Origin: Geodermatophilus ruber
GTDB lineage: Bacteria; Actinomycetota; Actinomycetes; Mycobacteriales; Geodermatophilaceae
Reading direction: 5' to 3'
Length of the DNA: 64,000 nt
Assembly: GCF_900114385.1 (NCBI RefSeq)
Contig: NZ_FOSW01000012.1
Coordinates: 1-64,000 of the forward strand
Below, piece after piece: positions 10,733 through 59,749 of this stretch. The position numbers and the translations under genes were made by a program. The notes under the pieces are model-generated. The model saw only the letters and a list, made by a program, of their open reading frames with translations, had not been told where the DNA came from and searched no databases. How positions within the stretch are numbered: position 1 is the first letter of the stretch; the number at the start of each line of letters is the position of its first letter.

Positions 10733-10825
10733 CGCGGCTCCATCCGGGGAACCCTCGGGGGTCACCGGCTCCCTCCCTCCTGCACCGCCGCGCCTGCCGC
10801 GCCGGGCCATGACCTGCGCCCCATC

Positions 10826-10871
10826 ATCGGGCCCGGGCCGCAGACCACTATCGGGCCTGGGCAACAGACCA
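10826..10871. repeat. Two tandem 22-bp direct repeats upstream of cofC
   Basis: Repeat one at 10826-10847 and repeat two at 10850-10871 match at 19 of 22 positions, with a 24-bp period. Both start ATCGGGCC and end CAGACCA. They lie in the 180-bp divergent region between plsC and cofC, about 40 bp before the cofC start, so they may be regulator sites. Confidence 0.5.
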
Positions 10872-10912
10872 GGGTGCACCGGGTCCCACAACGGGGCCGG
10901 TGTGCTCACATT

Positions 10913-11551
10913 GTGGCCGTGCTCCCCTGGTCGGTCGTCATCCCGGCGAAACGGCTCGCTGTCGCCAAGACCCGCCTGACCCCGCTGCCCGACGGGCTCT
11001 CCGGCAGCGCGCACGCCGAGCTCGTGCTGGCCCTGCTGGCCGACACGGTTGCCGCCGCGCTGGCCGCGCCCGCGGTGACCGGCGTCGTGGTGGTCACCGA
11101 CGACCCGGCCGCCGCGGCGGTCGTCACCGGCCTCGGCGCCCGCACGGTGCCCGACGAGCCCGACCGGGGGCTCAACCCCGCCCTGGCCCACGGGGCGCGC
11201 GCCGCCGGCGGCGCCGCGGTCGCCGCCCTGTCCTCCGACCTCCCCGCGCTGCGCCCGGAGGAGCTCTCCGCCGCGCTGACCGCCGCGGTGTCGGCGCCTC
11301 GCTGCTTCGTGGCCGACGCGCAGGGCACGGGGACGACGCTGCTCACCGCGACCGGGGTCGAGCTCGCCCCGGCCTTCGGCGCCGGCTCGGCGGCCCGGCA
11401 CCGGACCGGCGGCGCGCTGCCGCTGACCGGCGCCTGGCCCGGGCTGGCCCGGGACGTGGACACCCCCGAGGACCTGCGGGCCGCCGTGGCCCTCGGCGTC
11501 GGCCGGCACACCGCCGCGCTGCTGGCCGCGCTGGGGGATCGCACCGGCTGA
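10913..11551 (+). CDS. cofC: 2-phospho-L-lactate / phosphoenolpyruvate guanylyltransferase
   Basis: CofC (FbiD in mycobacteria) transfers GMP to phosphoenolpyruvate or 2-phospholactate to start the side chain of coenzyme F420. The 212-residue protein begins [15 protein letters not shown], the NTP-transferase signature, and has [40 protein letters not shown] and the C-terminal [16 protein letters not shown] codons at 10913 and 10919 are both possible starts. Position next to ppk1 matches the conserved fbiD-ppk1-mutT1 order. F420 capacity is relevant because some LLM enzymes in this window could use F420. Confidence 0.9.
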
Positions 11552-11591
11552 GGGCCGCCCGCGGCCGGTCATCCTGCGGCACGATGGGCGG

Positions 11592-13652
11592 GTGACCACC
11601 ACTCGTCCCCTCGCCCCGGCCGAGAGGTACCTCAACCGCGAGCTGTCCTGGCTGGACTTCAACGCCCGGGTGCTGGAGCTGGCCGAGGACGAGTCGTTGC
11701 CGCTGCTGGAGCGGGTGAAGTTCCTGGCGATCTTCGCCAGCAACCTGGACGAGTTCTACATGGTGCGCGTGGCCGGGCTGAAGCGCCGGCGGAGCATGGG
11801 CCTGACCGTCCGCTCCCCCGACGGGCTGACCATCCGCGAGCAGCTCGAGCTCATCCAGCAGCGCACCCAGGAGCTGGTCCGCCGGCAGGCGGACGACTTC
11901 AACAAGGACATCGCGCCCCGGCTCGAGGACGCCGCCATCCGCATCCTGCACTGGGAGGACCTTCCGGAGGACGCCGCCCCGCGGCTGCGGGAGTACTTCC
12001 GCGACCAGGTCTTCCCGGTGCTCACCCCGCTCGCGGTCGACCCGGCCCATCCCTTCCCCTACATCAGCGGTCTGTCGCTCAACCTCGCCGTGTTGGTGCG
12101 CAACCCGGAGACCGGGGTGTCGCACTTCGCCCGCGTCAAGGTCCCGAACAACGTGCCGCGGTTCGTCGCCGTCGAGCCCCCCGACCACGCGGCGACCTTC
12201 CTGCCGCTCGAGGACCTCATCGCGGCGCACCTGCCGCAGCTGTTCCCCGGTCTCGAGGTCGTCGCGCACCATCCGTTCCGGGTCACCCGCAACGCCGACG
12301 TCGAGGTGGAGGAGGACCGGGACGAGGACCTCCTGCAGGCCATGGAGCGGGAGCTGTCCCGGCGCCGGTTCGGGCCGGCGGTCCGGCTCGAGGTGACCGA
12401 GTCGATGGACCCGCAGATCCTCGAACTGCTGCTCTCGGAGCTGGAGATGCAGCCCGGGGACGTCTTCCACGTGCCGGGGCTGCTCGACCTCGCCTCCCTG
12501 TGGCAGGTCTACGCCCTCGACCGGCCGGAGCTCAAGGACGAGCCGTTCGTGCCGGCCACCCACCCGCGGCTGTCGGAGGGCGAGTCGCCCACGAGCGTGT
12601 TCGCCACCCTGCGCGAGGGCGACGTGCTGGTGCACCACCCCTACCAGTCGTTCGCCACCAGCGTGCAGCGGTTCATCGAGCAGGCCGCCGCCGACCCGCA
12701 CGTGCTCGCGATCAAGCAGACGCTCTACCGCACCTCCGGCGACTCCCCCATCGTCAACGCGCTGATCGACGCGGCCGAGGCCGGCAAGCAGGTCGTCGTC
12801 ATCGTGGAGATCAAGGCGCGTTTCGACGAGGAGGCCAACATCAGCTGGGCCCGCTCGCTGGAGCGGGCCGGCTGCCACGTCGTCTACGGGCTCGTGGGGC
12901 TGAAGACGCACTGCAAGACGGCGCTGGTGGTGCGCCGGGAGAACGGCGTCATCCGCCGGTACTGCCACATCGGCACCGGCAACTACAACCCCCGGACCGC
13001 CCGGATCTACGAGGACCTCGGCATCCTCACCGCCGACCCGGGGGTGGGCGCCGATCTCACCGACCTGTTCAACACCCTCACCGGGTACTCGCGGCAGACC
13101 AGCTACCGGCGGCTGATGGTCGCCCCGCACAGCATCCGCGCGGGGCTGCTGGAGCGGATCCACCGGGAGGCCCGCAACGCCGCGGACGGCCGGCCGGCCG
13201 GGATCCGCATCAAGGTCAACTCGCTGGTCGACGAGCAGATCATCGACGCGCTGTACGAGGCCTCGACCGCTGGGGTGCCCGTGGAGCTGCTCATCCGCGG
13301 GATCTGCGCGCTGCGCCCGGGGGTGCCGGGCCTGTCGGAGAACATCCGGGTGCGCTCGATCGTGGGCCGCTTCCTCGAGCACTCGCGGGTGATGAACTTC
13401 GCCGGCGCCGGCGACCCCGAGTGGTGGATCGGCAGCGCCGACCTGATGCACCGCAACCTGGACCGCCGGGTGGAGGTGCTGCTGCGCGTCTGCGACGAGA
13501 CCGCGCAGCGCCAGTTGCAGGAGATCTTCGACGCGGCGATGGCCGACGACGTCCGCTGCTGGGAGCTCGGCAGCGACGCGGTGTGGCGGCGCATCGGGGA
13601 GCGCGACTACCAGGCCGAGCTGATGGCGGCCGCCAGTGAGCACGGAAGCTGA
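11592..13652 (+). CDS. ppk1: Polyphosphate kinase 1
   Basis: Reversibly polymerises the ATP gamma-phosphate into inorganic polyphosphate. The 686-residue protein has the N-terminal domain [20 protein letters not shown], the head domain with [13 protein letters not shown], and two PLD-like catalytic domains. The catalytic parts show [39 protein letters not shown] and the phosphorylated-histidine block [20 protein letters not shown]. The C-terminus has [20 protein letters not shown]. Length is normal. The GTG start at 11592 follows a GGGCGGGTG context, and the stop overlaps mutT1 by 17 nt. Confidence 0.96.
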
Positions 13653-14634
13653 CACCGGCCTGGTCGTGCGGGCGGCCGGCGGGGCGCTGTGGCGCCCGGC
13701 GGACGACGGCACGGTCGAGACCGCCGTGGTGCACCGTCCCAGGTACGACGACTGGTCGCTGCCCAAGGGCAAGCTGGACGCCGGCGAGCACGCGCTGACC
13801 GCGGCGGTCCGCGAGGTGACCGAGGAGACCGGGCTGGGCGTCGTCGCCGGGCGGCGCAGCCTGCGGACCGAGTACGCCCTACCGGTGGGCGCCAAGCGGG
13901 TCGACTACTGGCTCATGCGGGTCGTGGGCGGCGAGTTCGTCGCCAACCAGGAGGTCGACCGGCTGCGCTGGCTCCCCCTGCCCGAGGCCGCTGCCCTGGT
14001 CACCCACGAGGCCGACCGGGCGGTGCTGGCCGACCTGGGGCGCACCGACGTCCCCCGGGCGCCGACCCTGCTGCTGGTGCGGCACGGGCGGGCCGGGGAC
14101 AAGTCCCGCTGGGAGGGGCACGACGACCTGCGACCGCTGGACAGCAAGGGCCGCCGGCAGGCGCGGCGGCTGGCCGAGGTGCTGCCGCTGTTCGGGCCCA
14201 CCGAGGTGTTCACGGTCCCCCGCACCCGCTGCCGGCAGACGGTGGAACCGCTGGCCGAGCGGCTGGGCCTGCCGGTGCAGGACCTGCCCGAGCTCGGGGA
14301 GCAGGAGTTCGCCGCCGACCCCCAGGCGGGCCTCGCGGTGGTGAACCGGCTCCTGTCGCCCCGGGGCACCCCGGGGGTCAGCGTGGTCTGCAGCCAGGGC
14401 GGTGCGATCCCGTCGGTGCTGCTCAGCCTGGGGGTGGGCCGGCCCGGCGTCGCCGCGCGGCTGCATCCGCCCGCCGCCAAGGGCAGCGTGTGGGCCCTCG
14501 GCGGCCGGCCCGGGGAGCTGGCCGCGGACTACTACCGGGACTTCGAGGCCGATCCCGACGCACCCGAGAGCGCGCCGGGATCGGCTCCGGTTCAGGCCGG
14601 CAGGACCGGGAGCGCCTTCGGCAGCCAGGGCTGA
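13636..14634 (+). CDS. mutT1: MutT1-type Nudix hydrolase with C-terminal histidine phosphatase domain
   Basis: A two-domain protein of 332 residues. The Nudix domain (about 1-130) carries the full Nudix box: [20 protein letters not shown] followed by TGL. The phosphatase domain (about 145-300) begins [15 protein letters not shown] with the catalytic RHG. In mycobacteria this fusion hydrolyses oxidised GTP and diadenosine polyphosphates and sits beside ppk1. The GTG start lies inside the ppk1 end. The last 43 nt overlap the leuD 3' end on the opposite strand. Confidence 0.9.
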
Positions 14635-23206: not shown

Positions 23207-24691
23207 TCACCCGGCGATCGTCGCGCGGGCCGCGGCCAGGCGGCCCAGCGTGCGGTCCCGCCCCAGCAGCTCCATCGACTCGTACAGCGGCGGGGAGACG
23301 GTGCGCCCGCTGACGGCCACCCGTACCGGCCCGAACGCCTGCCGCGGCTTGCGGCCCAACCCCTCCACCAGCGCGCTCTTCAGCGCGGCCTCGATCTCCG
23401 GGGTGGTCCACTCCCCCAGCCCGGACAGCGCCGCCGTCGCGGCGTCCAGCACCTCGGCCGCCTCGGGGCCGGCCAGCTGCTTGGCCGCGGCCGCCGGGTC
23501 GATCTCGACGTCGTCGGTGAAGAGGAACCGCAGCAGCCCCACCGCGTCGGAGAGCACGATCATCCGCTCCTGCGCCATCGGCGCGATCGCCCGCAGCAGC
23601 CGATCCTGCTCGGGCGTCGGCGGGTCGCTCACCAGCCCGGCCCGGGCGAGGAAGGGCACCACGCGGGAGATGAAGTCCTCCAGCGGCAGGGCGCGCAGAT
23701 GGGCGGCGTTGATCGCCTCGGCCTTCTTCAGGTCGAAGCAGGCGGGGTTGGCGCTGACCCGGGTGACGTCGAAGGCCTCCACCATCTCCTCCATCGAGAA
23801 GATGTCGCGGTCCTCGGCGATCGACCAGCCCAGCAGCGCGAGGTAGTTGGCCAGCCCCTCGGGGAGGAAGCCCCGATCCCGGTAGACGTCGAGGTTGGAC
23901 TGCGGGTCCCGCTTGGACAGCTTCTTGTTGCCCTCGCCGGTCACGTACGGGAGGTGGCCGAACCGCGGGGTCCCGGAGGCCACGCCGATGTCGGTCAGCG
24001 CCCTGTAGAGGGCCAGCTGACGCGGCGTCGAGGGCAGCAGGTCCTCACCGCGCAGCACGTCGGTGATGCCCATCAGGGCGTCGTCGACCGGGTTGACGAA
24101 CGGGTAGAGCGGCACCCCGTTGGCCCGCACGAGCACGAAGTCGGGCACGGAGCCGGCGGCGAAGCGGATCTCCCCGCGCACGAGGTCGTCCCACACGAGG
24201 TCCTCGTCGGGCATCTTCAGCCGCAGCACCGGCTCGCGGCCCTCGGCCCGGAAGGCGGCCTTCTGCTCGTCGGTCAGGTACCGGTCGGCGTTGTCGTAGC
24301 CCAGCTTGGGGTCCTGCCCGGCGGCGAGCCGGCGGGTCTCGACCTCCTCGTTGGTGGAGAAGGACTCGTAGGCGTGACCGGCGGCCAGCAGCTTCGCGGC
24401 GACGTCGCGGTAGATCTCGTGGCGCTCGGACTGCCGGTAGGGCTCGTGCGGGCCGCCGACCCCGGGGCCCTCGTCCCAGTCCAGGCCCAGCCAGCGCATG
24501 CAGTCGAGCAGGTGCCGGTAGGACTCCTCGGAGTCGCGGCTGGCGTCGGTGTCCTCGATGCGGAAGACGAGCCTGCCGCCGGTGTGCCGGGCGTGCGCCC
24601 AGTTGAACAGTGCCGTCCGCATCAGGCCGACGTGCACCATGCCGGTCGGCGAGGGGCAGAACCGGGTCCGCACGGTCGCGGGGGTGGTCAC
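23207..24691 (-). CDS. gltX: Glutamyl-tRNA synthetase
   Basis: Class I synthetase charging tRNA-Glu, and tRNA-Gln where the transamidation pathway is used. The 494 residues begin [20 protein letters not shown] (HIGH-type motif), with [30 protein letters not shown] and the KMSKS-type KKLSKRDPQ. The GTG start overlaps the preceding FAH-family stop by four bases. It is near the tRNA-Glu and tRNA-Gln genes, as in other actinobacteria. Confidence 0.96.
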
Positions 24692-25500
24692 CGCGCGCCT
24701 CCGGCGGTGGACGTGGTGTCGGCGTCGGCCACGGTGTTGGCCAGCGTGCCCAGGCCCTCGATGCTCACCTCCACGCGCTGGCCGGCCCGGATCGGGCCGA
24801 CGCCCGAGGGCGTGCCGGTGAGCACCACGTCGCCGGGCAGCAGGGTCATGACCTGCGAGATGTGGGAGATCAGCGTCGGGACGTCGAACAGCAGCTGGCT
24901 GGTGCGGCCCTGCTGGCGCAGCTCGCCGTCGACGGTGCAGGTGATCTCGAGGTCGGCGGGGTCCTTGCCCAGCGCGGCGAGGTCGGTCTCGATCCACGGG
25001 CCCAGCGGGCAGAAGGAGTCGAAGCCCTTGGCGCGGGTCCACTGCCCGTCGTTGCGCTGCATGTCCCGCTCGGTGACGTCGTTGCCGATCGAGTAGCCGA
25101 AGACGCTGGACAGCGCCTGCTCGGGGCTCACGTGCCGGGCGCCGCGGGCGCCGATGACGACGGCCAGCTCGGCCTCGTGGTGCACGTTGGTGCTGCCCGG
25201 CGGGATCCGGATCGCATCGCCCGGGCCGATGACCGAGGTGGAGGGCTTGAGGAACAGCAGCGGCTCCTTCGGCGCGTCGCCGGTGTTCATCTCCTGGACG
25301 TGCGCGGCGTAGTTCTTGCCGACGCAGACCACCTTGCTGGGCAGGATCGGCGAGAGCAGCCGGACATCGGCCTGGTCGAACCGCTGGCCGGTGAAGGAGA
25401 TGGTGCCGAACGGGTGGCCCTCGATCTGGGCGACCTGGCCGTCGCCGTCGAGGACACCGAAGGACATGCCGGAGGGCGAGGCGAAACGAACGATGCGCAC
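24688..25500 (-). CDS. Fumarylacetoacetate hydrolase-family protein
   Basis: A 270-residue FAH-domain protein. Seen are [34 protein letters not shown], the metal ligands in [42 protein letters not shown], and the C-terminal [18 protein letters not shown]. This is the ubiquitous cytosolic FAHD-type hydrolase/decarboxylase that precedes gltX in the conserved actinobacterial order. Its substrate is probably a 2,4-dioxo acid, though this is not established from sequence. GTG start. Confidence 0.9.
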
Positions 25501-25575
25501 GGGTCGAGGCTAGTCGCCGGGGCATGGTGCGTCCGGGCTGGTCGGTCACGGGGCGGTTGCCCCTACGGTGACGCC

Positions 25576-25953
25576 ATGGCGTGCCGGCTCAGCGAGATCG
25601 TCGTCGACTCCCGCGATCCCGAGGCACTGGCCGCCTGGTGGGCGCAGGTCCTGGGCTACCGGGTCCTGTCCCGCGAGGACGGGGCGGTCGAGATCGGCCC
25701 GGCGGCCGGGTTCGGCGGGCCGGCACCGACCCTGGTGTTCACCCCCGTCGCCGACCTGTCGCCGGGCAAGCCCCGGCTGCACCTGGACCTCAACGCCACC
25801 GACCGGGACCAGGACGCCGAACTCGACCGGCTGCTGGCTCTCGGCGCGGTGCACGCCGATGTCGGCCAGACTGGCGCGGAGAACTGGCACGTGCTGGCCG
25901 ACCCCGAGGGCAACCCGTTCTGCCTGCTGCGCCGCCGGCTCGACCCGCTGTAG
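25576..25953 (+). CDS. VOC-family (glyoxalase-like) protein
   Basis: A 125-residue single-domain protein: [38 protein letters not shown], then [20 protein letters not shown] and the C-terminal [17 protein letters not shown], the classical glyoxalase/bleomycin-resistance fold. ATG at 25576, TAG stop. It is followed after 23 bp by the ABM-domain gene. No specific function is assigned. Confidence 0.85.
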
Positions 25954-33415: not shown

Positions 33416-34230
33416 CGGACACCCTGACCCGCCGTCGCTCGACGGAGGAGATCGCCCGGTCCCGGCCGGCCTGGCAGCGCCGGCTCACCTCCGACCGGGC
33501 GGCGCGGCTCACCTTCTACGTGGTCGCGTTCCTGTTCTGGATCGCGCTCGCCGGGCTCTTCGAGCGGATCCCCGGACCGCCGTCGGTGGTGGACAGCCTC
33601 GTCGAGGAGTTCCGCCGGGGCGAGGTCTTCGGCAACTTCGCCGACACCTTCTACCGGTTCGGCATCGGGGTGGCCCTGTCGGTGGGCGTCGGCATCCTGG
33701 TCGGCGTCGTGATCGGGCTGTCCCCCATGGCCCGGGCGTTCCTCGAGAGCCCGGTCCTGGTGGGGCTGTCCATCCCCGCGATCATGTGGGCGTTCCTGAC
33801 CGTCATGTGGTTCGGGTTCGGGCACACCAGCCCGATCGTCACCACGTTCCTGACGGCGGTCCCGTTCGTGATCCTCAACGTCGCCCAGGGCGTCCAGGGC
33901 GTCTCCCGCGACCTGCGGGACATGTCCTCCTCCTACGGCGTCCCGCTCGGCCGGCGGGTCCGGGAGCTCGTCCTGCCCGCGGTCGCCGGCTACGTCGTGG
34001 CCGGCCTCCGGTTCGCCGTGATCATGGGCTGGAACGGGGTGCTCCTGGCCGAGTGGTTCGGCGGCTCCGGGGGCGCCGGGTACCGGGCCCGCTTCTGGTA
34101 CGACGCCAACCAGTTCGCCGGGTTCGCCGCCTGGGTGGTCCTCTTCGTCGGCGTGATCATCATCCTCGACCAGCTCCTGCTGGAGCGGCTGTCGCGGCGG
34201 ATGTTCCGCTGGCGGGACGCCACCCACTGA
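33412..34230 (+). CDS. ABC transporter permease (SsuC/TauC type), second subunit
   Basis: A 272-residue permease of the same family, with LTFYVVAFLFWIALAGLF as TM1 and the EAA loop VSRDLRDMSSSYGVPLGRRV followed by RELVLPAVAGYVV. Two different permease genes rather than one is the heterodimeric form of this transporter class. It begins with ATG overlapping the previous stop. The ATPase gene starts 52 bp downstream. Confidence 0.9.
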   Translation: MTDTLTRRRSTEEIARSRPAWQRRLTSDRAARLTFYVVAFLFWIALAGLFERIPGPPSVVDSLVEEFRRGEVFGNFADTFYRFGIGVALSVGVGILVGVVIGLSPMARAFLESPVLVGLSIPAIMWAFLTVMWFGFGHTSPIVTTFLTAVPFVILNVAQGVQGVSRDLRDMSSSYGVPLGRRVRELVLPAVAGYVVAGLRFAVIMGWNGVLLAEWFGGSGGAGYRARFWYDANQFAGFAAWVVLFVGVIIILDQLLLERLSRRMFRWRDATH

Positions 34231-36259: not shown

Positions 36260-36754
36260 CTACCCCGCGCCGGCGGGCAGGCCGGCCACCGCCCGCACCA
36301 CCTCGTCCAGGTCGGGCAGCACGAGGGCGTCGTCGGTGACCCACCGGTAGCGGACGGTCCGGTCGCGGTCGATGACGAAGACCGAGCGCTTCGCCACGCC
36401 CGTATGGCCCTTCCACACGTCGTACCGCACGCCGTAGGCCGCGCAGACGGTGCGGTCCCAGTCCGACAGCAGCGGGACGTCGATGCCGAGGGACGCGGCG
36501 AACGCCGTCTGCGAGAACGTCGCGGTGACCCCGACCGCGAGCACCTCGGCGCCCAGCGCCCGGAACTCCGGCGCCCGTCGTCCCAACTGGGACAGCTCGG
36601 TGCCCTAGTAGCCGCCGAAGTCGAAGACGTAGAAGGCCAGCACGACCGGGCCCCGCTCGAGGACCCGGTCCAGGTCGACGTCCTCCTCGAAGGTCCGCCG
36701 CAGCCGGAAGCCGGGGGCGCGGTCCCCCACGTCGGGGGCGGGCCGGGCGGTCAC
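36260..36754 (-). CDS. Peroxiredoxin (AhpC/TSA family) with in-frame UAG at the peroxidatic position: probable UAG-encoded selenoprotein
   Basis: Reading through one TAG (36605-36607) gives a 164-residue peroxiredoxin: VGDRAPGFRL, VVLAFYVFDFGGY, stop, GTELSQLGRRAPEF, then DVPLLSDWDRTVCAAYGV and AKRSVFVIDRDRTVRYRW. Compared with the family pattern FFPLAFTGIC-x-x-EL, the TAG (residue 50) falls exactly on the catalytic Cys. The family's Pro and Thr before that Cys are replaced by Val and Gly. A SECIS-like hairpin begins 11 bases after the TAG. UAG-programmed selenocysteine is reported in Geodermatophilus and Blastococcus. GTG start at 36754, ten bases after the FAH-family stop, with GAGGTGG as ribosome binding site; a GTG at 36763 is an alternative. 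It is last gene of the LLM-ribBA-FAH operon. Nonsense mutation is the alternative reading. Confidence 0.85.
36580..36607 (-). promoter_or_regulatory. UAG codon with bacterial SECIS-like stem-loop
   Basis: On the minus strand, TAG (36605-36607) is followed by 11 bases and then GTCCC-AGTT-GGGAC (36580-36593), a perfect five-pair stem, with one further U-G pair below it. The four-base apical loop (+17 to +20 after the codon) has G in its second position, the spacing and loop feature expected for bacterial SECIS elements read by SelB. Confidence 0.75.
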
Positions 36755-36764
36755 GTCCCCCACC

Positions 36765-37697
36765 TCACGTCAGGGGGTGCAGGGGGCCGGCCTCGGTGAT
36801 CCGGGCGGTGATCGCACCGAGCAGGTCGACCTCCAGCCGCACCTCGTCACCGGGGGTGAGCCATGGGTAGGCCTGCTCGCCGTGCACCGCGGCCAGCTCG
36901 AGGATGCAGCCGGTGCCCACCGTGCCGCTGCCGATCACGTCACCGGTCTGCACCCGGGTGCCGCGCGAGGCGTAGGCCACCATCTGGCCGAAGCTCCAGT
37001 AGAGGTCCGCGGCGTTGCCCTTGCTGCACGGCCGGCCGTTGACCGCGGCGCGCATCTCCAGGTCGAAGGAGACCCCGGCCCGGTGCGGCTCCAGCTCGTC
37101 GGGCGTGATCAGCCACGGCCCCAGGCTGGTGGCCGTGTCCTTGCCCTTGACCGGGCCCAGGCCCTGCCGCATCTCACGCGCCTGCAGGTCGCGGGCGCTC
37201 CAGTCGCAGAACAGCGTGTAGCCGGCGATGTGCCGCTCCGCCTCCTCCGGCCGCAGGTCCGCCCCGCCGCAGCCGATGACCGCGGCGAGCTCCAGCTCGA
37301 AGTCGAACTGCACGCTGCCGGGAGACATCGGGATCTCCTCCCGCGCCGACCGGATCGCCGCCGGGTTCTGGAAGTAGAAGACCGGCAGCTCGTACCACCC
37401 GGGGTCCATCTGCTGGCCGTTGGCCTCCCGGTAGGTGCGGACGTGGGTCTCGAAGGCGTAGAAGTCGCGCACCGACGGCGGTGCGGGGATCGGCGCGAGC
37501 AGCCGGGCCTCGCCCTCGGGGACGACGTCGAGGGGGTCGGCCAGCGCCTCCTCGCCCGCGCGGGCGAGCCGCTCGCCGTCGTCGCCCAGGAGATCGATCA
37601 GCCGGGTGGCGGTGCGCAGCCCGTGCAGGGCGCCGCCGGAGACGACGGCCGGGTGCTCCCGCCCGTCGGTGGGCGAGAGGTAGCTGCTCCAGCGCAT
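36765..37697 (-). CDS. Fumarylacetoacetate hydrolase-family protein (fumarylacetoacetase-like C-terminal domain)
   Basis: A 310-residue hydrolase. Seen are APIPAPPSVRDFYAFETHVR, PVFYFQNPAAIRSAREEIP, the metal ligands in FDFELELAAVIGCGG, GYTLFCDWSARDLQAREMR, KGKDTATSLGPWLITPDEL and a C-terminal GDVIGSGTVGTGCILEL. These features resemble the FAH-domain enzymes that cleave ring-fission products. It lies between ribBA and the peroxiredoxin in one minus-strand operon. ATG start at 37697. Confidence 0.88.
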   Translation of the reverse strand: MRWSSYLSPTDGREHPAVVSGGALHGLRTATRLIDLLGDDGERLARAGEEALADPLDVVPEGEARLLAPIPAPPSVRDFYAFETHVRTYREANGQQMDPGWYELPVFYFQNPAAIRSAREEIPMSPGSVQFDFELELAAVIGCGGADLRPEEAERHIAGYTLFCDWSARDLQAREMRQGLGPVKGKDTATSLGPWLITPDELEPHRAGVSFDLEMRAAVNGRPCSKGNAADLYWSFGQMVAYASRGTRVQTGDVIGSGTVGTGCILELAAVHGEQAYPWLTPGDEVRLEVDLLGAITARITEAGPLHPLT

Positions 37698-37732: not shown

Positions 37733-39043
37733 TCAGAGGGACGCCGAGCCGGAACCGGGCAGCCGCTCCCCGGCCGCGCGCAGCTCCCGCTCGCCCGCCG
37801 GCACGGGGACGTCCAGGCCGTCCAGCAGGTGGCCCATCCGGCGCTTCTTGGTCCGCAGGTAGGCCAGGTTCTCCGGGTTCGGGACCGTCTGGAGCGGCTC
37901 ACGCCCGACGATCTCCAACCCGTAGCCGGTCAGCCCGCCGTACTTGACCGGGTTGTTGGTGAGCAGGCGCAGGCGGCGGGCACCGAGGTCGGCGAGGATC
38001 TGCGCGCCGACCCCGTACTCCCGGCTGTCGACCGGGACGCCGAGGTCGAGGTTGGCGTCGACGGTGTCCCGCCCGGCGTCCTGCAGGCCGTAGGCGCGCA
38101 GCTTGTGGCCCAGGCCGATGCCCCGCCCCTCGTGGCCGCGCAGGTACACGACCACGCCCCGCCCCGCCGCCGCCACCCGGGCCATCGCCGTCTCCAGCTG
38201 CGGCCCGCAGTCGCAGCGCAGCGACCGGAAGATGTCGCCGGTGAGGCACTCGCTGTGCACCCGCACGAGCACCTCGTCCTCGCCGGCGACGTCCCCGACG
38301 GTGAACGCGACGTGCTCGATGCCGTCGAGCAGCGAGCGGTAGCCCAGGCAGCGGAACTCGCCCCAGGGAGTGGGCACCCGGGCCTCCCCGGTGCGCTCGA
38401 CGAGGACGTCGGCCCGCCGGCGGTGGGCCACGAGGTCGGCGATCGTGATGACCGGCAGCCCGTGCTCGTCGGCGAAGCGCAGCAGGTCCGGACGGCGGGC
38501 CATCGTGCCGTCGTCGTTGACCACCTCGGCGAGCACGCCGGCCGGGGCCAGACCGGCCAGCCGGGCCAGGTCCACCGCGGCCTCGGTGTGGCCCGCCCGC
38601 TTGAGCACCCCGCCGTCCCGGGCGCGCAGCGGGAACACGTGCCCGGGCCGGGTGAACGCCGCGGGAGACAGGGACTCGTCGGCCAGTGCGCGGACGGTCG
38701 CCGAGCGGTCGGCGGCGGAGATCCCCGTCGTGGTGCCGGCCGCGAGGTCGACGGTCTGCGTGAACGCGGTGCGGTGCGGCTCGGTGTTGTGCCCCACCAT
38801 CATCGGCAGCTCCAGCGCGTCGCAGCGCTCGCCGGTCAGCGCCACGCAGAGCACCCCGGAGGTGTAGCGGACCAGGAACGCGACGTCCTCCGGGAGGACG
38901 TGCTCGGCGGCCATCACGAGGTCGCCCTCGTCCTCCCGGTCCTCGTCGTCGACGACGACCACCATGCCGCCGTCGGCGATCTCCTGCACCGCCTGCTCGA
39001 CGTCGTCGAAGCCGCGGGGTTCCCTCTCCTCGGTACCGGTCAC
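37733..39043 (-). CDS. ribBA: Bifunctional 3,4-dihydroxy-2-butanone-4-phosphate synthase / GTP cyclohydrolase II
   Basis: Makes the two precursors of riboflavin. The RibB domain (about 1-210) has [39 protein letters not shown] and [20 protein letters not shown]. The RibA domain (about 220-430) has the zinc motif [17 protein letters not shown] and the catalytic [20 protein letters not shown], then [13 protein letters not shown] complete 436-residue enzyme. No FMN riboswitch is visible in the 32-bp gap upstream. Its place inside a flavin-monooxygenase operon, away from other rib genes, suggests a dedicated flavin supply. Confidence 0.93.
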
Positions 39044-39075
39044 GGCGGCACTCCTGCTCCGGGCGTCGGGTGGTC

Positions 39076-40323
39076 TCAGGTCTCGTAGGGGGTCATCTCG
39101 TCGAGCGCGGGCTTGACGTGCTCCATGAACAGCTCGAGCTGCCGGACCACGCTCGCGGCCGGTTGCTGCGCCCAGTGGTAGATCAGCACGACGTACTCGG
39201 CCGGGAGCTGCCGCCACAGCTCCACGTACTGCTCCCTGGCCTGCTCGGGCGTGCCGACGACCCACAGCCCGGAGTTCACGACCGAGTCGACGGGGCGGTC
39301 GGGGTCGAACGACATCGGCGTGGTGCCCGCGTAGAGGTCGCGGAAGATGTCCACGTCGTACTCGGCGACCATCCGGCGCGCCTCGTCCTCGGTCTCGGCG
39401 ATCTGCCCCCACCGGACCAGCGCCTGGTTCTGGCCCAGCGCGTAGCTCCGCCCCGCCGCGGCGGCCGCGTCGACGTAGGCGCCGCCGAACTCGGCGGCCC
39501 GCTCGATCTTGGAGAAGTAGGTCGGGATGAACCCGCGCGGCCCGCAGTACTCGATCGTCTCCTTGCTGGCGTTGCTGGAGACGAAGACCGGCGGGTAGGG
39601 CTTGGTGAGCGGGCTGGGGACGACGCTGACCCGGCGGATCTTGTTGTGCTCGTCCATCTCCCCGGGGGCTCCGAGCTCCCGGGTCGCCGTCATCGTCCAG
39701 TCGACGCCCTGGTCGTAGGGGTAGGGCACCTGCCAGCGGCCCTTGGCCTCGACGCTGTCCTGGGTCCAGGCCTGCAGGACCAGCTCGACGTTCTCCTCGA
39801 AGATCTCCCGGTTGATCTGGTCGTCGGAGATCCGGGCGGCCTGCGTGGCCTCGTCCAGCTCGGCCATCTTCTCCTGGTTGCCCGAGGGCGAGAGCGTGGC
39901 CCGGGAGCCCAGGTGCTGGCCGAGGATGTTGGTCCAGCGCGCCTGATAGCCGCGGGAGAAGCCGCAGAAGCTGCGGCCGCCGGCGAGGTGGTCGATGACG
40001 GCGACGTCCTCGGCCACGCGGAACGGGTTCTGCGCACTCATCGTGTAGCCGAGCTGCCCGACCCGGATCCGCTTGGTGATCGCCGCCCAGTAGGCGTCGA
40101 GCAGCCCCGGGTTGGGGCCCACCTCGTAGCCCTCGCTGTGGAAGTGGTGCTCGATCGAGGAGATCCCCCACAGGCCGAGCTCGTCCGCGGCACGGACGAT
40201 CGTCGGCATCTCGCGGATCAGCGCCTGGTAGCGCTCCGCGTCCCGGCCCAGCGGGCGCTGCGCGATGCGCTCCTCACGGCCGGCCCGGACCTGGGGGTAC
40301 AGCTGCAGGATCACCTTCACCAT
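39076..40323 (-). CDS. LLM-class flavin-dependent monooxygenase (415 aa)
   Basis: A luciferase-like TIM-barrel oxidoreductase of the long, FMNH2-dependent kind. Seen are [40 protein letters not shown], the flavin-binding region [20 protein letters not shown], and [20 protein letters not shown]. Its length and an inserted loop (about 130-200) set it apart from the short F420-type members. First gene of the operon with ribBA, the FAH-family hydrolase and the peroxiredoxin. ATG at 40323. Upstream lies a perfect 12-bp palindrome shared with the divergent synthetase gene. Confidence 0.85.
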
Positions 40324-40527: not shown

Positions 40528-42546
40528 ATGACCATCGCCGAGTTCGACGGACTGCCGATCGCCTGGACCCCGCCGCCGGGCGCCTTCGCCGCCTCCCCGG
40601 CGGGCCGCTTCGCCGCCCGCCACGGCCTCGCCGACGCCCGGGCGCTCGCCGACCGGGCCGCCGCCGACCCCGCCTGGTACTGGGCCGCGGGCGCCGAGGA
40701 CGTCGGCATCCCCTGGATGCGGCGCTTCGACCGGGTCGTGGACCTCTCCCGGGGCGTGGAGCACCCGGAGTTCTTCGTCGGCGGGCTGCTGAACTGGGCG
40801 GACTTCGCGGTCGACCGGTGGGTCCGGGAGGGCCGCGGCGACGCCCGGGCGGTGGAGTGGGAGGGGGACGACCGCAGCACCCGCACGCTGACCTACGCCG
40901 AGCTGAAGAAGGACGTCGACGCCGCGGCCGGCGCGCTGCGGGCCCGCGGCGTGGGGGCCGGCGACGTGGTCGCCCTGCTGCTGCCGATGGTGCCCGAGGC
41001 GATCGCCACCGTGCTGGCCGTGGCGAAGATCGGCGCGATCGCCATGCCGCTGTTCAGCGGGTACGGCGCCGGCGCCGTCCGCGCGCGGCTGGTGGACGCC
41101 GGCGCCACCGCGCTGGTCACCTGCGACGCGTTCCCCCGCCGCGGCCGCCCGGTGGAGCTCAAGCGGGTCGCCGACGAGGCCGTCCGCGACCTGCCCGCCC
41201 TGCGCACGGTCCTCGTCGTCCGCCGGCTCGGGACCGAGGTGCCCATGACGCCCGGCCGGGACGCCTGGTGGCACGAGGAGTGCGCCACCGCCCGGCCGGT
41301 GGAGCAGGCCGAGCCCGTGCCCGCCGGCGCTCCCTGCCTGCTGCTCTACACCTCCGGCAGCACCGGCCGCCCCAAGGGCTGCGTGCACACCCACGCCGGC
41401 CTGCCACTCAAGATCGCGTTGGAGGCGCGGCACGCCCTGGGGGTCGACGAGACCTCGGCGATGCTGTGGCTGACCGACATGGGCTGGGTGATGGGCTCGT
41501 TCGTCATCGCCGCGGCGCTGGGCAACGGCGGCACCGCGGTGTTCTTCGAGGGGGTGCCCGACTGGCCCGCCCCCGACCGGCTGTGGGCGGTCGCCGAGCG
41601 CAGCCGGACCACCGTGCTGGGCGTCTCCCCCACCGTGGTGCGGGCCCTCATGGCCCACGGCAGCTCGTGGCCGGACCGGCACGACCTACCCGACCTGCGG
41701 GCCATCGGGTCCACCGGGGAACCGTGGAACGTCGAGCCGTGGCTGTGGTGCGCCCGGCACGTGGGCAAGGGCCGGGTGCCGATCGTCAACATCTCCGGGG
41801 GCACGGAGGTGGGCGGCTCCCTGCTCTGCGGCTCGATCTACCAGCCGGTGAAGCCGGCGGCGTTCACCGGCCCCACGCTCGGCGTCCGCACCGACGTCGT
41901 GGACGAGCAGGGGCGCCCGGTGCGCGGGGAGATCGGGGAGCTCGTCGTCCGCTCCGTCTGGCCGGGGATGACCCGGGGGTTCTGGGGCGACGACGAGCGC
42001 TACCTGGACGCCTACTGGCGGCGCTTCCCCGGCGTCTGGCACCACAGCGACCTGGCCTACGTCGACGCCGACGGCTTCTGGTACCTCCTCGGCCGCTCCG
42101 ACGACACCATCAAGGTGGCCGGCAAGCGGCTCGGGCCGGCCGAGGTGGAGTCCCTGCTGGTCGCCGACGAGCGGGTGGTCGAGGCCGCGGCGATCGGCGT
42201 CCCGGACCCGGTCAAGGGCGAGGCGCTGGTCTGCTTCGTGGTGCTGCACCCCGGCGTGGACGCGGCCGCCGCCGCCGACGGGCTGCGGACGGCGGTGCGC
42301 GAGGCGTTCGGCAAGGCGCTGGCCCCGTCCGCGGTCCACCCCGTTCCCGCGCTGCCCAAGACCCGCAACGGCAAGATCCTCCGGCGGGTGGCCCGAGCCT
42401 CCTATCTCGGCAGCCCACCGGGCGACCTCAGCGCGCTGGAGGACGCCGCGGTCCTCGAGGACTGGCCGCGCACGGGCGGGTCCGGGTCGGGGAAGCCGCG
42501 GTCGCGACAGCGTGATGCACGGGCCGGACTCCCTAGAGTGTCGTGA
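40528..42546 (+). CDS. AMP-dependent acyl-CoA synthetase/ligase
   Basis: A 672-residue adenylate-forming enzyme of the acetyl-/propionyl-CoA-synthetase-like group. Seen are the P-loop LLLYTSGSTGRPKGCVHTHA, the A5-type block NISGGTEVGGSLLC, the hinge Asp region GFWYLLGRSDDTIKVAGKRL, and the acceptor lysine in ALPKTRNGKILRRVARASYL. It activates a carboxylic acid through an acyl-AMP; the acid is unknown. The ATG at 40528 was chosen because the conserved fold starts soon after, although the frame is open far upstream. Its end overlaps possible early starts of the GAF/PucR regulator gene. Confidence 0.88.
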   Translation: MTIAEFDGLPIAWTPPPGAFAASPAGRFAARHGLADARALADRAAADPAWYWAAGAEDVGIPWMRRFDRVVDLSRGVEHPEFFVGGLLNWADFAVDRWVREGRGDARAVEWEGDDRSTRTLTYAELKKDVDAAAGALRARGVGAGDVVALLLPMVPEAIATVLAVAKIGAIAMPLFSGYGAGAVRARLVDAGATALVTCDAFPRRGRPVELKRVADEAVRDLPALRTVLVVRRLGTEVPMTPGRDAWWHEECATARPVEQAEPVPAGAPCLLLYTSGSTGRPKGCVHTHAGLPLKIALEARHALGVDETSAMLWLTDMGWVMGSFVIAAALGNGGTAVFFEGVPDWPAPDRLWAVAERSRTTVLGVSPTVVRALMAHGSSWPDRHDLPDLRAIGSTGEPWNVEPWLWCARHVGKGRVPIVNISGGTEVGGSLLCGSIYQPVKPAAFTGPTLGVRTDVVDEQGRPVRGEIGELVVRSVWPGMTRGFWGDDERYLDAYWRRFPGVWHHSDLAYVDADGFWYLLGRSDDTIKVAGKRLGPAEVESLLVADERVVEAAAIGVPDPVKGEALVCFVVLHPGVDAAAAADGLRTAVREAFGKALAPSAVHPVPALPKTRNGKILRRVARASYLGSPPGDLSALEDAAVLEDWPRTGGSGSGKPRSRQRDARAGLPRVS

Positions 42547-42577
42547 CCCGGAACACATCGTCGTGGAAGGGCCGCTC

Positions 42578-44476
42578 GTGGTGCACCCACCGCTCACGGA
42601 GCCCGACGTCCTCCTCGCCGGGGAACCGCCCACCGCCGAGCTGAGCTCCTGGCTCGACGCCATCGCCGAGATCACCCGCGCGGCCAACCGCGACGCGCCG
42701 CTGGCCGATCTGCTGGACCTCATCGCCGGGACGACCGCGCGGCTGACCGGTTACGGCTTCTGCGCCGTCTTCGTCGCCGACTTCGAGCGCCAGGCGCTGC
42801 TCATCAAGGGCTCCTACGGGCTCTCCCAGGAGTACATCGCCACGATCAACGCCCGCACCCCGATCCCGCTGCGCGCCGGCGAGACCGGCGAGGGCCCCTC
42901 CAGCCGCGCGTACCGCGCCCAGCGCCCCACGACGATCCTGGACATCGCCGCCGATCCCCCCTCGCGCTCCTGGGAGACCGTGGCCGCGCAGCAGGGTTAC
43001 TCCTCGCTGCTGTCGGTGCCGCTGGCCGTCGGGCAGACCCTGTTCGGCCTGATCAACTGCTACACCGTCGAGAAGCACGAGTTCTCCGCCCGCGAGATCA
43101 TCCTGATGGAGAGCATGGCCAACCAGGCCGGCCTGGCCGTCGAGACCGCCCAGCGGCTGGCCGAGGGCCGCCGCCGGGCCCAGGAGGCCGCCGAGCGGGC
43201 CGACGCGCTCCGGGCCGAGCTCGACGCGCAGCGGCAGGCCGAGGAGGACCACCGTGCCCTGCTGCGGGTCGTGCTGCGCGGCGGCGGCCTGGCCGCCATC
43301 GCCGAGTCGCTGGCCGCCATGCTCGGGTGCGCGGTGGTCATCGACGACGACGCCGGCCGGGTGCTCGCCTCGGCCTGCCGCGACGGCCGGACGGGCTGCC
43401 GCGATCCCCGGCTGATCGCGGCCTACCAGCGGGCCCGGGCGCAGGTGGGCCCGCAGGTGGGCCGGGAGACCGTCGCCGTCACACCCGCCAGGGAGCGCCG
43501 CGGGGAGCCGACAGGGCTGGTCGTCCCCGTCGTGCTCGACGAGAACCTGGCCGGGCACCTGTGGGCGCTGGACCCGGCCGCGCCGTTCGGCCCGCCGCAG
43601 CGGCAGGCGCTGGCCCGGGAGGCGGCCGTGGTCGCGCTGGCCCTGCTCAAGGAGCGGACGGCGCAGGAGGTGGAGTGGCGGCTGTCCCGGGACTTCCTCG
43701 ACGACCTCTTCGACCCCCGCGGGCAGAGCGCCGAGGCGCTGCACGCCCGCGCCCGCCAGCTCGGTGCGGACCTGTCGCAACCGCACACCCTGCTGGTCGT
43801 CCGGCGCGATCCCGCCCGCGGGGGCGCGGCCGTGCACGAGGAGCGGGAGGCCTACGCGCAACGGTCGCTGCTCTCCCTCGTGCAGCGCACCGCGGCCGGG
43901 GAGCCCGGGGCCACCCTGACTGCCACCCGCAGCGACCACGTGGTGGTCCTGTGGCACGACGACGGGAGCAACCGCGACGCCCAGGACTTCGCCGAGCACC
44001 TGCACCGGGAGATCCAGGCCTACGCCGGCGGGTGGACGGCCACGATCAGCGTCGGCCCGACCTGCCACGACGTCCAGGAGTACGACGATGCCTACCGGCT
44101 CACCTGCGGGGTGCTGGACCTGGTGCAGCAGTCCGGCCGCCGCGACCGGGTGGCCTCGCTGGGTTCGATCGGCGCCTTCGGGCTGCTGCTGCAGGTCCGC
44201 CGTCCGCAGGAGCTGCAGTCCTTCGCCGAGTCGATGCTCGGCACCGTCCGCACCTACGACCAGCGACACCAGACCGGCCTGGGGGCGACCCTGCGCTGCT
44301 ACATGGCGCAGCGGTGCAACGTCACCCGCACGGCCAAGGAGCTGCACGTGCACCCCAACACGGTGGCCTACCGGCTGCGGCGGGTGGAGGAGCTGCTCGG
44401 CATCGACGTGGGCGATCCCCAGGCGATGCTGCACCTGCAGCTGGCGCTCATGATCGAGACGATCCTGGGCGACTAG
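42578..44476 (+). CDS. GAF-domain PucR/CdaR-type transcriptional regulator
   Basis: A regulator of about 632 residues. The N-terminal GAF domain (about 25-190) senses a small ligand (GTTARLTGYGFCAVFVADFE, YSSLLSVPLAVGQTLFGLIN). A coiled segment rich in Glu/Arg/Ala follows (EGRRRAQEAAERADALRAEL). The middle GGDEF-like region ends in the PucR C-terminal HTH_30: YMAQRCNVTRTAKELHVHPN, then TVAYRLRRVEELLGIDV. GTG codons at 42563, 42578 and 42581 are possible starts; 42578 has GGAAGGG at a good distance. The stop TAG is part of the CTAG where the IS-type terminus begins. Confidence 0.82.
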   Translation: MVHPPLTEPDVLLAGEPPTAELSSWLDAIAEITRAANRDAPLADLLDLIAGTTARLTGYGFCAVFVADFERQALLIKGSYGLSQEYIATINARTPIPLRAGETGEGPSSRAYRAQRPTTILDIAADPPSRSWETVAAQQGYSSLLSVPLAVGQTLFGLINCYTVEKHEFSAREIILMESMANQAGLAVETAQRLAEGRRRAQEAAERADALRAELDAQRQAEEDHRALLRVVLRGGGLAAIAESLAAMLGCAVVIDDDAGRVLASACRDGRTGCRDPRLIAAYQRARAQVGPQVGRETVAVTPARERRGEPTGLVVPVVLDENLAGHLWALDPAAPFGPPQRQALAREAAVVALALLKERTAQEVEWRLSRDFLDDLFDPRGQSAEALHARARQLGADLSQPHTLLVVRRDPARGGAAVHEEREAYAQRSLLSLVQRTAAGEPGATLTATRSDHVVVLWHDDGSNRDAQDFAEHLHREIQAYAGGWTATISVGPTCHDVQEYDDAYRLTCGVLDLVQQSGRRDRVASLGSIGAFGLLLQVRRPQELQSFAESMLGTVRTYDQRHQTGLGATLRCYMAQRCNVTRTAKELHVHPNTVAYRLRRVEELLGIDVGDPQAMLHLQLALMIETILGD

Positions 44477-44502: not shown

Positions 44503-44721
44503 CCGGCAGGTTGGTGAGCGTGAAGACTCGGCCGTCGGTGCGCGGAGGCCCGGGCCGAGGGTGTCGTTCACCCGCGCCGTCGTCATGCGGGCCATCGCAG
44601 GACTGGTGCGAACCGGGGTTGCGCAGGTGTGACGGGTTCCTCAGCGGGGCATCAGGCGGGCGGGAGCAGATGGGCCCGGGGGTTCTGTTCCACCACGCAG
44701 CATGGGCGACGGAGCCACGAC
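44503..44721. other. Non-coding junction after the solo IS end
   Basis: About 220 bp with no supported gene. It lacks similarity by eye to the IS982 body, so the element that once used the terminus is gone or belonged to another type. The following gene has an unusual coding style, so this could be the edge of acquired DNA. Confidence 0.4.
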
Positions 44722-45477
44722 GTGCTGAACCTCTCCCTCACCCTGGCGATCGGCCTGCCGCTGACGTTCCTGCACGTCTGGTCGCCCTACGTCCACCCCG
44801 GCAGGTACATCGACTCGAGGTACTGGCTGCCGTTCGCCGACGGCATCTCCATCACCTACATCTTCCTGCAGCTGTTGCCCGAGATCACGCACCTCGCTGA
44901 CGAGGTGCTGCATCCGGACGAGCCCTATGTCGTGAGGTTCTCCGGGTGGCTCGAGGCGCTCTCCGCCTGGGGCGCGCAGAACCCCTTTCTTCCCCTGCTG
45001 GTGGGGTTCACGTTCTTCTACGGGCTGGAGAGAGGGTTCGAACGCCCCGTCGCCCACGGGCCCAGCGACGGGGCGGAGCGTCGGGTGCACTTCTGGGTGC
45101 ACATGTTCGGCATGTCGCTGTACAAGATCCTGCTGGGCTACCTGATGGGCCAGATCACCAGCGTGTCCGGCCTCCTCATCTTCGCCTTCGCCATGACGAT
45201 GCATTTCCTGGTGATCGACTTCCACCTGCTGGAGATGCACCGCTCGGCCTACCACCGGATCGGCAGATGGATCCTGAGCGGCGCCTTCCTTGTCGGATGG
45301 ATCCTCAGCACGCAGGTCGAGATCGCCCCACCGGTGCTGGCCATGCTGGTCTCGTTCGTAGCGGGCGGCGCCGTGCTGATGGTCATTCAGGACGAGTTCT
45401 CGGAGAGCCACGACAACTCCTATGCCGCCTTCCTGATCGCGGTCCTCCTGTACGGCTCGCTGCTGCTGGTGTTCTAG
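44722..45477 (+). CDS. Polytopic membrane protein of unknown function
   Basis: A 251-residue protein with about seven membrane segments: LSLTLAIGLPLTFLHVW, ISITYIFLQLLPEITHLAD, NPFLPLLVGFTFFYGLERG, VHMFGMSLYKILLGYLMG, LLIFAFAMTMHFLVIDFHLL, WILSGAFLVGWILS and FVAGGAVLMVIQDEF. Charged or polar residues in the membrane (Glu, His, Asp) suggest transport or sensing. It uses more Ile, Phe, Met, Tyr and His and more A/T codons than its neighbours, hinting at transfer. GTG at 44722 preferred; stop TAG. I do not recognise the family. The next 179 bp (to 45656) hold no supported gene. Confidence 0.65.
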   Translation: MLNLSLTLAIGLPLTFLHVWSPYVHPGRYIDSRYWLPFADGISITYIFLQLLPEITHLADEVLHPDEPYVVRFSGWLEALSAWGAQNPFLPLLVGFTFFYGLERGFERPVAHGPSDGAERRVHFWVHMFGMSLYKILLGYLMGQITSVSGLLIFAFAMTMHFLVIDFHLLEMHRSAYHRIGRWILSGAFLVGWILSTQVEIAPPVLAMLVSFVAGGAVLMVIQDEFSESHDNSYAAFLIAVLLYGSLLLVF

Positions 45478-58495: not shown

Positions 58496-59749
58496 GTGCT
58501 CGACGCCGCGGACCCCGCGCTGACCGCCCCCGGCAGGCCGCCGCTGCCCGGGTGGGTCCGGGAGATGGCCGCCGACGTCGACCTGGTCGCCCTGTGCGAG
58601 CGGGTCGTGGCCCGCGACATCGCGGTGGCCTTCCCCGGCCTGGCGCAGGACGACGGGTTCGCCGGGCACCTGCGCGCGAGCGTGCGGGAGAACCTGCGCC
58701 TGCTGCAGCAGGTGCTCTGCGGCCGGCTGCCGCTGGCGGCGGTGCGCCTGGAGCAGCCGCTGGCCTTCGCCCGCGTCCAGGCCGAGCTGCACATCCCGCA
58801 GACGGCCCTGCAGCGCTCCTACCGGGTCGGCTTCGTCGAGATGTGGCGGGCGTGGGCCGACCGCCTGCAGGAGGTGGCCGAGGCGAGCGACGTCCCCCGC
58901 GCGGAGGCGGTGCGGGCGCTGGCCGACCTGACCGCCGCGATCCTCGACTACCAGGACCACGTCGCCTCGCTGGTCGCGGAGAACCACGCGCGGGTGGACG
59001 AGGCGCTCAGCCGCACGCGGGCGCACGTCCGGCAGGGGCTGGTCCGGGAGATCCTGCGCGGCGACCGCTCGTCGCTGGCCCCCTCGGACCTCATCACGCT
59101 CGACCACGACCTCGGCGGCGAGCACGTCGTCGTCCTCCTGCCGGCGGTGGCCGAGGGCGCGGCCGGCAACCTGATGACCGGGCTGCGGGCCCGCACCGGC
59201 GTGCGGCAGACCCTGGTCCACCCGCTGGACCTGAGCCGGACGGCGGTCTGGCTGACCGTCCCGAGCTGGACCGGGGGCATGCACCGGCGCCTGCTCGCCG
59301 CCCTCGCCGACGCGGGGATGGAGGCCTCGGTGTCCGAGCCGCTGCGCGGTCTCGCCGGCTTCCGCGAGGCCCACGAGCAGGCCCGGGACGTCGAGCGGGT
59401 GCGGGCGGCGTGGGGCCGCGCCGCCGCACCGCGGGTGCTCGGGCACGCCGACGTCGCCCTGGAGATCCTGCTGCTGCGCGACCCCGCGCGGGCCCGCCGG
59501 TTCGTGCGCGCCGAGCTGGGCCCGCTGGCCGAGGACACCCCCGAGGCGGGCCGGCTGCGGGAGACGCTGGAGGCCTCGTTCCGGCTGGGCAGCCACGTGG
59601 GCACCGCCGAGCACCTGGGGCTGCACGAGCACACCGTCCGCAACCGGCTGCACCGGGCCGAGGAGCACCTCGGGCACCCGCTCCCCGAGCGGCGCACCGA
59701 GCTGCAGGTCGCCCTCCGGCTGCAGCGGCTGCTCGCCGGCGCCGGCTAG
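58496..59749 (+). CDS. PucR/CdaR-type helix-turn-helix regulator
   Basis: A 417-residue regulator with an N-terminal sensing domain (RsbRD_N-like, about 20-165: VRENLRLLQQVLCGRLPL, GFVEMWRAWADRLQEVAE), a middle GGDEF-like region, and the C-terminal HTH_30: EHLGLHEHTVRNRLHRAEEH. The HTH lacks the usual NTV and reads HTVRNRL, still typical. The GTG start follows GGAGGAGGAAG. It probably controls the divergent FAD monooxygenase operon. Stop TAG. Confidence 0.87.
   Translation: MLDAADPALTAPGRPPLPGWVREMAADVDLVALCERVVARDIAVAFPGLAQDDGFAGHLRASVRENLRLLQQVLCGRLPLAAVRLEQPLAFARVQAELHIPQTALQRSYRVGFVEMWRAWADRLQEVAEASDVPRAEAVRALADLTAAILDYQDHVASLVAENHARVDEALSRTRAHVRQGLVREILRGDRSSLAPSDLITLDHDLGGEHVVVLLPAVAEGAAGNLMTGLRARTGVRQTLVHPLDLSRTAVWLTVPSWTGGMHRRLLAALADAGMEASVSEPLRGLAGFREAHEQARDVERVRAAWGRAAAPRVLGHADVALEILLLRDPARARRFVRAELGPLAEDTPEAGRLRETLEASFRLGSHVGTAEHLGLHEHTVRNRLHRAEEHLGHPLPERRTELQVALRLQRLLAGAG

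Follow-up and report, generated by a model that had tools for sequence, protein, structure and literature searches.

The 64,000-nt stretch of DNA analysed here (the window), contig C9 of a Geodermatophilus ruber genome of 4.99 Mb in 32 contigs (99.66% complete), carries on its minus strand a gene of the AhpC/TSA family with a TAG codon inside its reading frame, which raises the question of whether this codon marks a damaged gene, ends the protein or is decoded as an amino acid. The preliminary description had seen two halves of one peroxiredoxin lying in a single frame and split solely by this TAG, and read-through translation bears this out. The segment from the TAG at residue 50 to the terminal TAG encodes 114 residues, and the joined protein scores 93.1 bits against the profile PF00578 (AhpC-TSA; gathering threshold 26) and also matches PF08534 (Redoxin) in a profile search. 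Two alignments, to 2cx3 and to 2ywn, set the TAG against the Cys of these proteins, in agreement with the earlier placement of the codon at the peroxidatic cysteine. We consider it very probable (roughly 0.95) that the product of this gene is an AhpC/TSA-family selenoprotein, with UAG-50 decoded as selenocysteine (Sec). The features of this Sec gene, its surroundings and the related loci are collected in Table 1.

Table 1. Features of the Sec gene, its neighbours, the TAG-ended frames and the Sec-decoding loci (positions are those of the window unless another stretch or contig is named)
Feature	Position	Strand	Remarks
Sec-containing AhpC/TSA-family (peroxiredoxin-like) gene	36260..36754	-	164 residues with UAG as Sec
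Start codon GTG of the Sec gene	36754-36752	-	
In-frame TAG, probable Sec codon	36607-36605	-	residue 50, peroxidatic-Cys position
Putative bacterial SECIS hairpin UGUCCC-AGUU-GGGACG	36579..36594	-	10 nt past the Sec codon; loop 36588-36585
Terminator of the Sec gene, also TAG	36262-36260	-	presumed ordinary stop
FAA hydrolase gene	36765..37697	-	directly upstream of the Sec gene, 10-nt gap
ribBA (DHBP synthase/GTP cyclohydrolase II)	37733..39075	-	conserved neighbour; start not exactly pinned
Luciferase-like monooxygenase gene	39076..40323	-	conserved neighbour
TAG-ended open frame	24610..25953	+	frame reading alone
TAG-ended open frame	42512..44476	+	frame reading alone
TAG-ended open frame	44629..45477	+	frame reading alone
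TAG-ended open frame	58496..59749	+	frame reading alone
selD	8613-9617 of stretch L006	-	TIGR00476, 384.2 bits, over cut-off
tRNA-Sec(CUA)	9641-9732 of stretch L006	+	
selA	within 10085-12007 of stretch L006	+	TIGR00474, 414 bits, over cut-off
selB	12001-13740 of stretch L006	+	TIGR00475, 280.5 bits, over cut-off
tRNA-Sec(UCA) of genome G058	C17:1169-1263 (L119)	-	81.8 bits
AhpD-like ORF of genome G058	1579-2157 of C17 (L119)	+	TIGR01926, 112.6 bits, cut-off 81.8

A scan of genome contigs for relatives located 28 loci besides the window's gene, of which three have TAG, 16 TGA and nine a Cys codon at residue 50, making the window's gene the fourth TAG copy. The TAG relatives belong to Geodermatophilus africanus (strain DSM 45422, L049), Geodermatophilus sp. 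YIM 151500 and Blastococcus sp. CT_GayMR19, and the TGA relatives (L051 and L053-L067) are all actinobacterial MAGs by name except L067 ('bacterium'). Together with the window's gene these form a close group in which a recoded codon occupies residue 50 in 20/20 members and Cys in none, with TAG in 4/4 copies from Geodermatophilaceae and TGA in the 16/16 other close orthologues; among the copies that can be placed, codon choice tracks bacterial family. Cys is found in all nine distant relatives (L068-L076), where the site was aligned in L068 and L069 and placed by eye in the other seven (L070-L076). The exchange of Cys and TGA at this residue, which the preliminary description had suggested looking for, is thus present in the homologues. 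A search of 112 Geodermatophilaceae genomes at E ≤ 1e-20 recovered the Sec gene in four, the window's and the three named relatives, all with TAG. These three also keep the luciferase-like gene, ribBA, the FAA hydrolase gene and the Sec gene in this order. Matches to the three neighbour genes at E ≤ 1e-10 were absent from all 16 TGA loci, some of these loci reaching only a short way upstream.

A single in-frame stop resembles at first sight a pseudogene created by nonsense mutation, or a sequencing error for TGC or TGT. However, the same codon is TAG in the orthologues of three other family genomes, whose proteins are 69–77% identical to the window's, and TGA in 16 further relatives; none of these has Cys there. 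The frame of all four family orthologues is open apart from the residue-50 TAG (the TGA in the G040 copy is its terminator), and the search for further lesions in close relatives, also proposed earlier, revealed three family copies free of frameshifts and of extra nonsense codons before their ends. A damaged or misread gene is on this evidence highly improbable. For the 20 Sec proteins, analysed without outgroups, the best tree topology requires two codon changes, and constraining the TAG rows to one clade was not rejected (p-AU 0.124). A previous tree, which included two Cys outgroups, did not count the 16 TGA rows and has no bearing on a single origin of TAG.

The genome of G. ruber contains a tRNA-Sec with a CUA anticodon at C14:257640-257731 (Rfam 66.6 bits, gathering 47). 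A second Rfam tRNA-Sec match over the gathering score was rejected as a tRNA-Ser. According to NCBIfam profiles, selD, tRNA-Sec, selA and selB are clustered within ~5.1 kb, so that all four components named for checking in the preliminary description are present, in one cluster. The same CUA tRNA is labelled 'tRNA-Pyl' by ARAGORN, as though UAG were read as pyrrolysine, but Rfam assigns it to tRNA-Sec and selA, selB and selD adjoin it. Moreover, a search for PylS alone found a sole PylS_Cterm match in the genome (24.4 bits; cut-off 178.15), and relatives have TGA or Cys at residue 50. The probability left to pyrrolysine is vanishingly small, and the combination of the tRNA-Sec(CUA), the sel cluster and the TAG/TGA/Cys exchange supports the original proposal that UAG is read as Sec.

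Bacterial Sec decoding competes with release factors. Competition with RF2 at UGA is described in the available text of PMC8124441, and this, like the Cys at residue 50 of the distant homologues, would fit a UAG read as Cys, near-cognate readthrough yielding a Cys-containing or mixed protein, or regulated truncation at low selenium. These possibilities are very unlikely, given that the genes for SelA, SelB and SelD adjoin the dedicated tRNA, itself a tRNA-Sec, and that a recoded TAG or TGA is kept in the whole close group. In the preferred reading, decoding of UAG-50 as Sec, SelA would use selenophosphate from SelD to convert Ser-tRNA-Sec(CUA) into Sec-tRNA-Sec, which SelB would bring to the ribosome, presumably while bound to the hairpin that starts behind the UAG. 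UAG-50 would then be decoded as Sec in probable competition with release factor 1, the terminal UAG of the gene and UAGs elsewhere would act as translation stops, and Sec-50 would be the presumed catalytic nucleophile of an enzyme that may reduce peroxides. The DNA itself shows an open frame, the tRNA and sel genes, the codon exchange and a conserved hairpin-forming segment, and from these we infer that Sec is probably inserted during translation of the window's mRNA.

The segment following the Sec codon folds, when 19 nt are considered, into a hairpin of 5–7 bp with AGUU in the loop in 20/20 Sec orthologues, the loop being 16 nt past the codon. The best 51-nt fold holds this hairpin in 15/20 (it is absent in L049, L054, L055, L059, and L067), and slipped stems keep the AGUU hairpin. 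Across the group, 88.3% of the 120 stem cells are paired, compared with 45–65% in slid versions, and 2/120 show a compensatory change; 5/500 shuffles reach each measure. Synonymous shuffles folded as well in at most 31/500 cases in 19/20 rows and in 53/500 in L067. RNAalifold returned four pairs (-3.58 kcal/mol; covariation term -0.18), and the 43-nt fold of the window's own sequence has a z of -1.65, with 12/200 shuffles equally good. By a loose hairpin rule applied to every TAG of the window, on either strand and in any frame, 90/356 score as high; the Sec codon is equalled by the ordinary stop at 44474, and for the terminal TAG of the Sec gene the rule finds a differently spaced hairpin of 4 bp. 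Hairpins also follow the formate dehydrogenase (FDH) and UGSC Sec codons of the genome, their loops bearing GGUCU and AGUUU. As evidence for a SECIS element in the Sec gene the hairpin is soft and its statistics mixed, comparable hairpins being common in this GC-rich window.

Because the Sec gene itself ends with TAG, recoding of UAG must be context-dependent. The four TAGs that the preliminary description had named as ordinary stops are indeed plus-strand TAGs ending open frames. A rough pick by base composition, which missed two of these four frames, found TAG at the end of 5/47 coding-like frames in the window, one of the five being the 3' half of the Sec gene and another (33651..33923) probably no gene. 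Since TAG ends merely this small share of frames in the rough pick, recoding it may cost little.

Other genes in the genome and family also contain an in-frame TAG. Two FDH genes of the window's genome have TAG at the Sec site (QARI-TAG-HSATVPGLG), and one of its three UGSC matches contains one TAG, likewise at a Sec site. Across the 112 family genomes, at least 45 FDH rows have one TAG, and no TGA was seen in UGSC rows among the matches listed. A candidate UGA-Sec FDH in the CUA genome G079 (L090), the one FDH row with TGA among the matches listed, was discarded, as its Sec-site segment is missing, the frame shifts there and the TGA is not at the Sec site. In the Blastococcus genus group (g3; 16 genomes), TAG occurs in 5/93 AhpC-TSA matches, with the type of the window's Sec gene (VFDFGxx-U) found once and the types WAPY-U-GC and GDW-U-PYC twice each. 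The latter two, ResA-like and AhpC-like, respectively, are represented by L141, L142, L143, and L144 in genomes G031, G034, G024, and G039, and L142 (WAPY-U-GC) scores over the cut-off of NF041054 (WAxxUGC_long). The GDW-U-PYC type may be the published AhpC type of Blastococcus saxobsidens.

The active-site motif PxxxTxxC defines enzymatic peroxiredoxins. The Sec proteins were found to have V-x-x-x-G-x-x-U in its place (36605-36628 of the window, minus strand), with V43 and G47 in 20/20 members versus Pro and Thr/Ser in the two aligned Cys outgroups. Thus, the earlier designation of the gene as a peroxiredoxin stands as far as the PF00578 match and the Cys-site alignment are concerned and fails at the motif; for this reason we use the name 'peroxiredoxin-like' and treat the enzymatic role as presumptive. 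With the Pro and Thr of the motif lost, peroxidase activity of the subfamily is not assured. Peroxiredoxins have a conserved catalytic Arg, for which R123, invariant in 22/22 rows (the 20 Sec proteins and both Cys outgroups), would be a candidate. The window's protein has a single other Cys, C104, which 7/19 other Sec proteins lack; this leads us to guess at a one-Sec mechanism with an outside reductant. The Bcp/PrxQ, AhpE and PrxU peroxiredoxins resemble the protein in belonging to PF00578 and in having Cys or Sec at the peroxidatic site. By sequence its best solved relatives are 2cx3, 2ywn and 3hjp, which have Bcp-type names, with Rv2238c, which we take to be AhpE, lower at 51.8 bits. Unlike PrxU, it reaches 48.8 bits against NF040737, below the cut-off of 270.

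UAG-programmed Sec in Geodermatophilus and Blastococcus was reportedly described by Mukai et al. in 2016 (Angew.), and 75Se or mass-spectrometric proof is said to have been given there. The window's genome resembles that system in family, in its tRNA-Sec(CUA) and in the FDH and UGSC genes with UAG-Sec; it differs in the peroxiredoxin-like gene, which would be an additional target. The window's Sec gene is hence a new example of a phenomenon already published for Geodermatophilaceae. In its available text, PMC5330540 records tRNA-Sec(CUA) in three Geodermatophilaceae genomes, cites its ref. 56 for UAG-Sec in FDH and UGSC, the only two it names, and gives a Sec-TAG AhpC with a predicted bSECIS in B. 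saxobsidens DD2; it also counts 18 genomes with two tRNA-Sec genes, eight of them bacterial, where the available text makes no mention of two anticodons. UAG is given as a Sec codon in Blastococcus in the accessible part of PMC5133445, and its use for Sec by some bacteria is stated in those of PMC10778597 and PMC8124441; that of PMC7609411 does not mention UAG-Sec. Prior knowledge of UAG-Sec in Geodermatophilus and Blastococcus, as asserted in the preliminary description, is therefore confirmed for the family, and for Blastococcus by name (PMC5330540 and PMC5133445, as far as their available text goes). The DD2 protein, as presented there, shares with the window's protein the AhpC/TSA family and a Sec-TAG; a predicted bSECIS is a feature of DD2, and the window's hairpin is putative. 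The two possibly belong to different subfamilies, g3 also holding the GDW-U-PYC and WAPY-U-GC types. Among the papers listed by searches of the open-licence PMC literature, not aimed at the genera with UCA, there was no account of the Sec subfamily, of a UCA tRNA-Sec within Geodermatophilaceae or of a genome using both codons. Likewise, the apparent codon switch inside the family and a genome with both tRNAs were not met in the searchable literature.

A tRNA-Sec match at E ≤ 1e-9 was found in 108/112 Geodermatophilaceae genomes, the four others being at most 82% complete. Reading the anticodon arm gave CUA in 101 of the 108 and UCA in seven (G066, G068, G069, G070, G072, G073, and G074, of genera g5, g6, and g7). 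Among the matches listed from 397 genomes of the order, every arm outside Geodermatophilaceae reads UCA, except for G230 and a few pattern hits that do not resemble tRNA-Sec. Given this distribution within and outside the family, a switch from UGA to UAG is most simply placed inside Geodermatophilaceae. In G230, which belongs to another family, is 82% complete and also has UCA, a Geodermatophilaceae-like CUA tRNA-Sec arm was read at C194:821-846; this exception may be contamination. UGA-Sec proteins of g5–g7 were looked for and not found: the nine genomes contained no FDH at E ≤ 1e-60, and the two UGSC matches in these genera (G066 and G072) have no stop.

Genome G058 belongs to the genus of the window's genome and contains two tRNA-Sec genes, one reading CUA and one reading UCA. 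The latter is located ~315 nt from an AhpD-like ORF on the opposite strand, which contains a TGA in NRCFY-U-MESH followed by a hairpin with a GUU loop; nine aligned family relatives have Cys at the TGA site. This AhpD-like gene was found at E ≤ 1e-28 in no other of the 397 order genomes, and weaker relatives (E ≤ 1e-8) are present in 72 other family genomes, with no internal stop among the matches listed. The first 20 kb of contig C17 have a GC content of 69.7%, compared with 76.1% in the next 20 kb, and bear IS110- and IstB-type genes; C17 is assigned to G058 solely through its continuation into high-GC DNA. G058 thus possibly uses two Sec codons, judged from these sequences. We put at even odds a history in which the Sec codon changed from UGA to UAG once, after the UCA genera g5–g7 had split off, with genes such as the window's Sec gene rewritten from TGA to TAG, and at least one member, G058, later regained UGA-Sec through an island carrying both a tRNA-Sec(UCA) and the AhpD-like gene; a single set of SelA, SelB and SelD would then serve two Sec codons in one cell.

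The small UAG-Sec proteome of these bacteria would gain another type of redox protein. With TAG in one family and TGA elsewhere at the same residue of a single orthologous group, and one hairpin-forming segment shared downstream of either codon, the Sec gene amounts to a clean natural experiment. The UCA genera and the two-tRNA genome G058 would make the history of the codon switch directly testable, and G058 would allow one to test if a single SelB serves two Sec codons.
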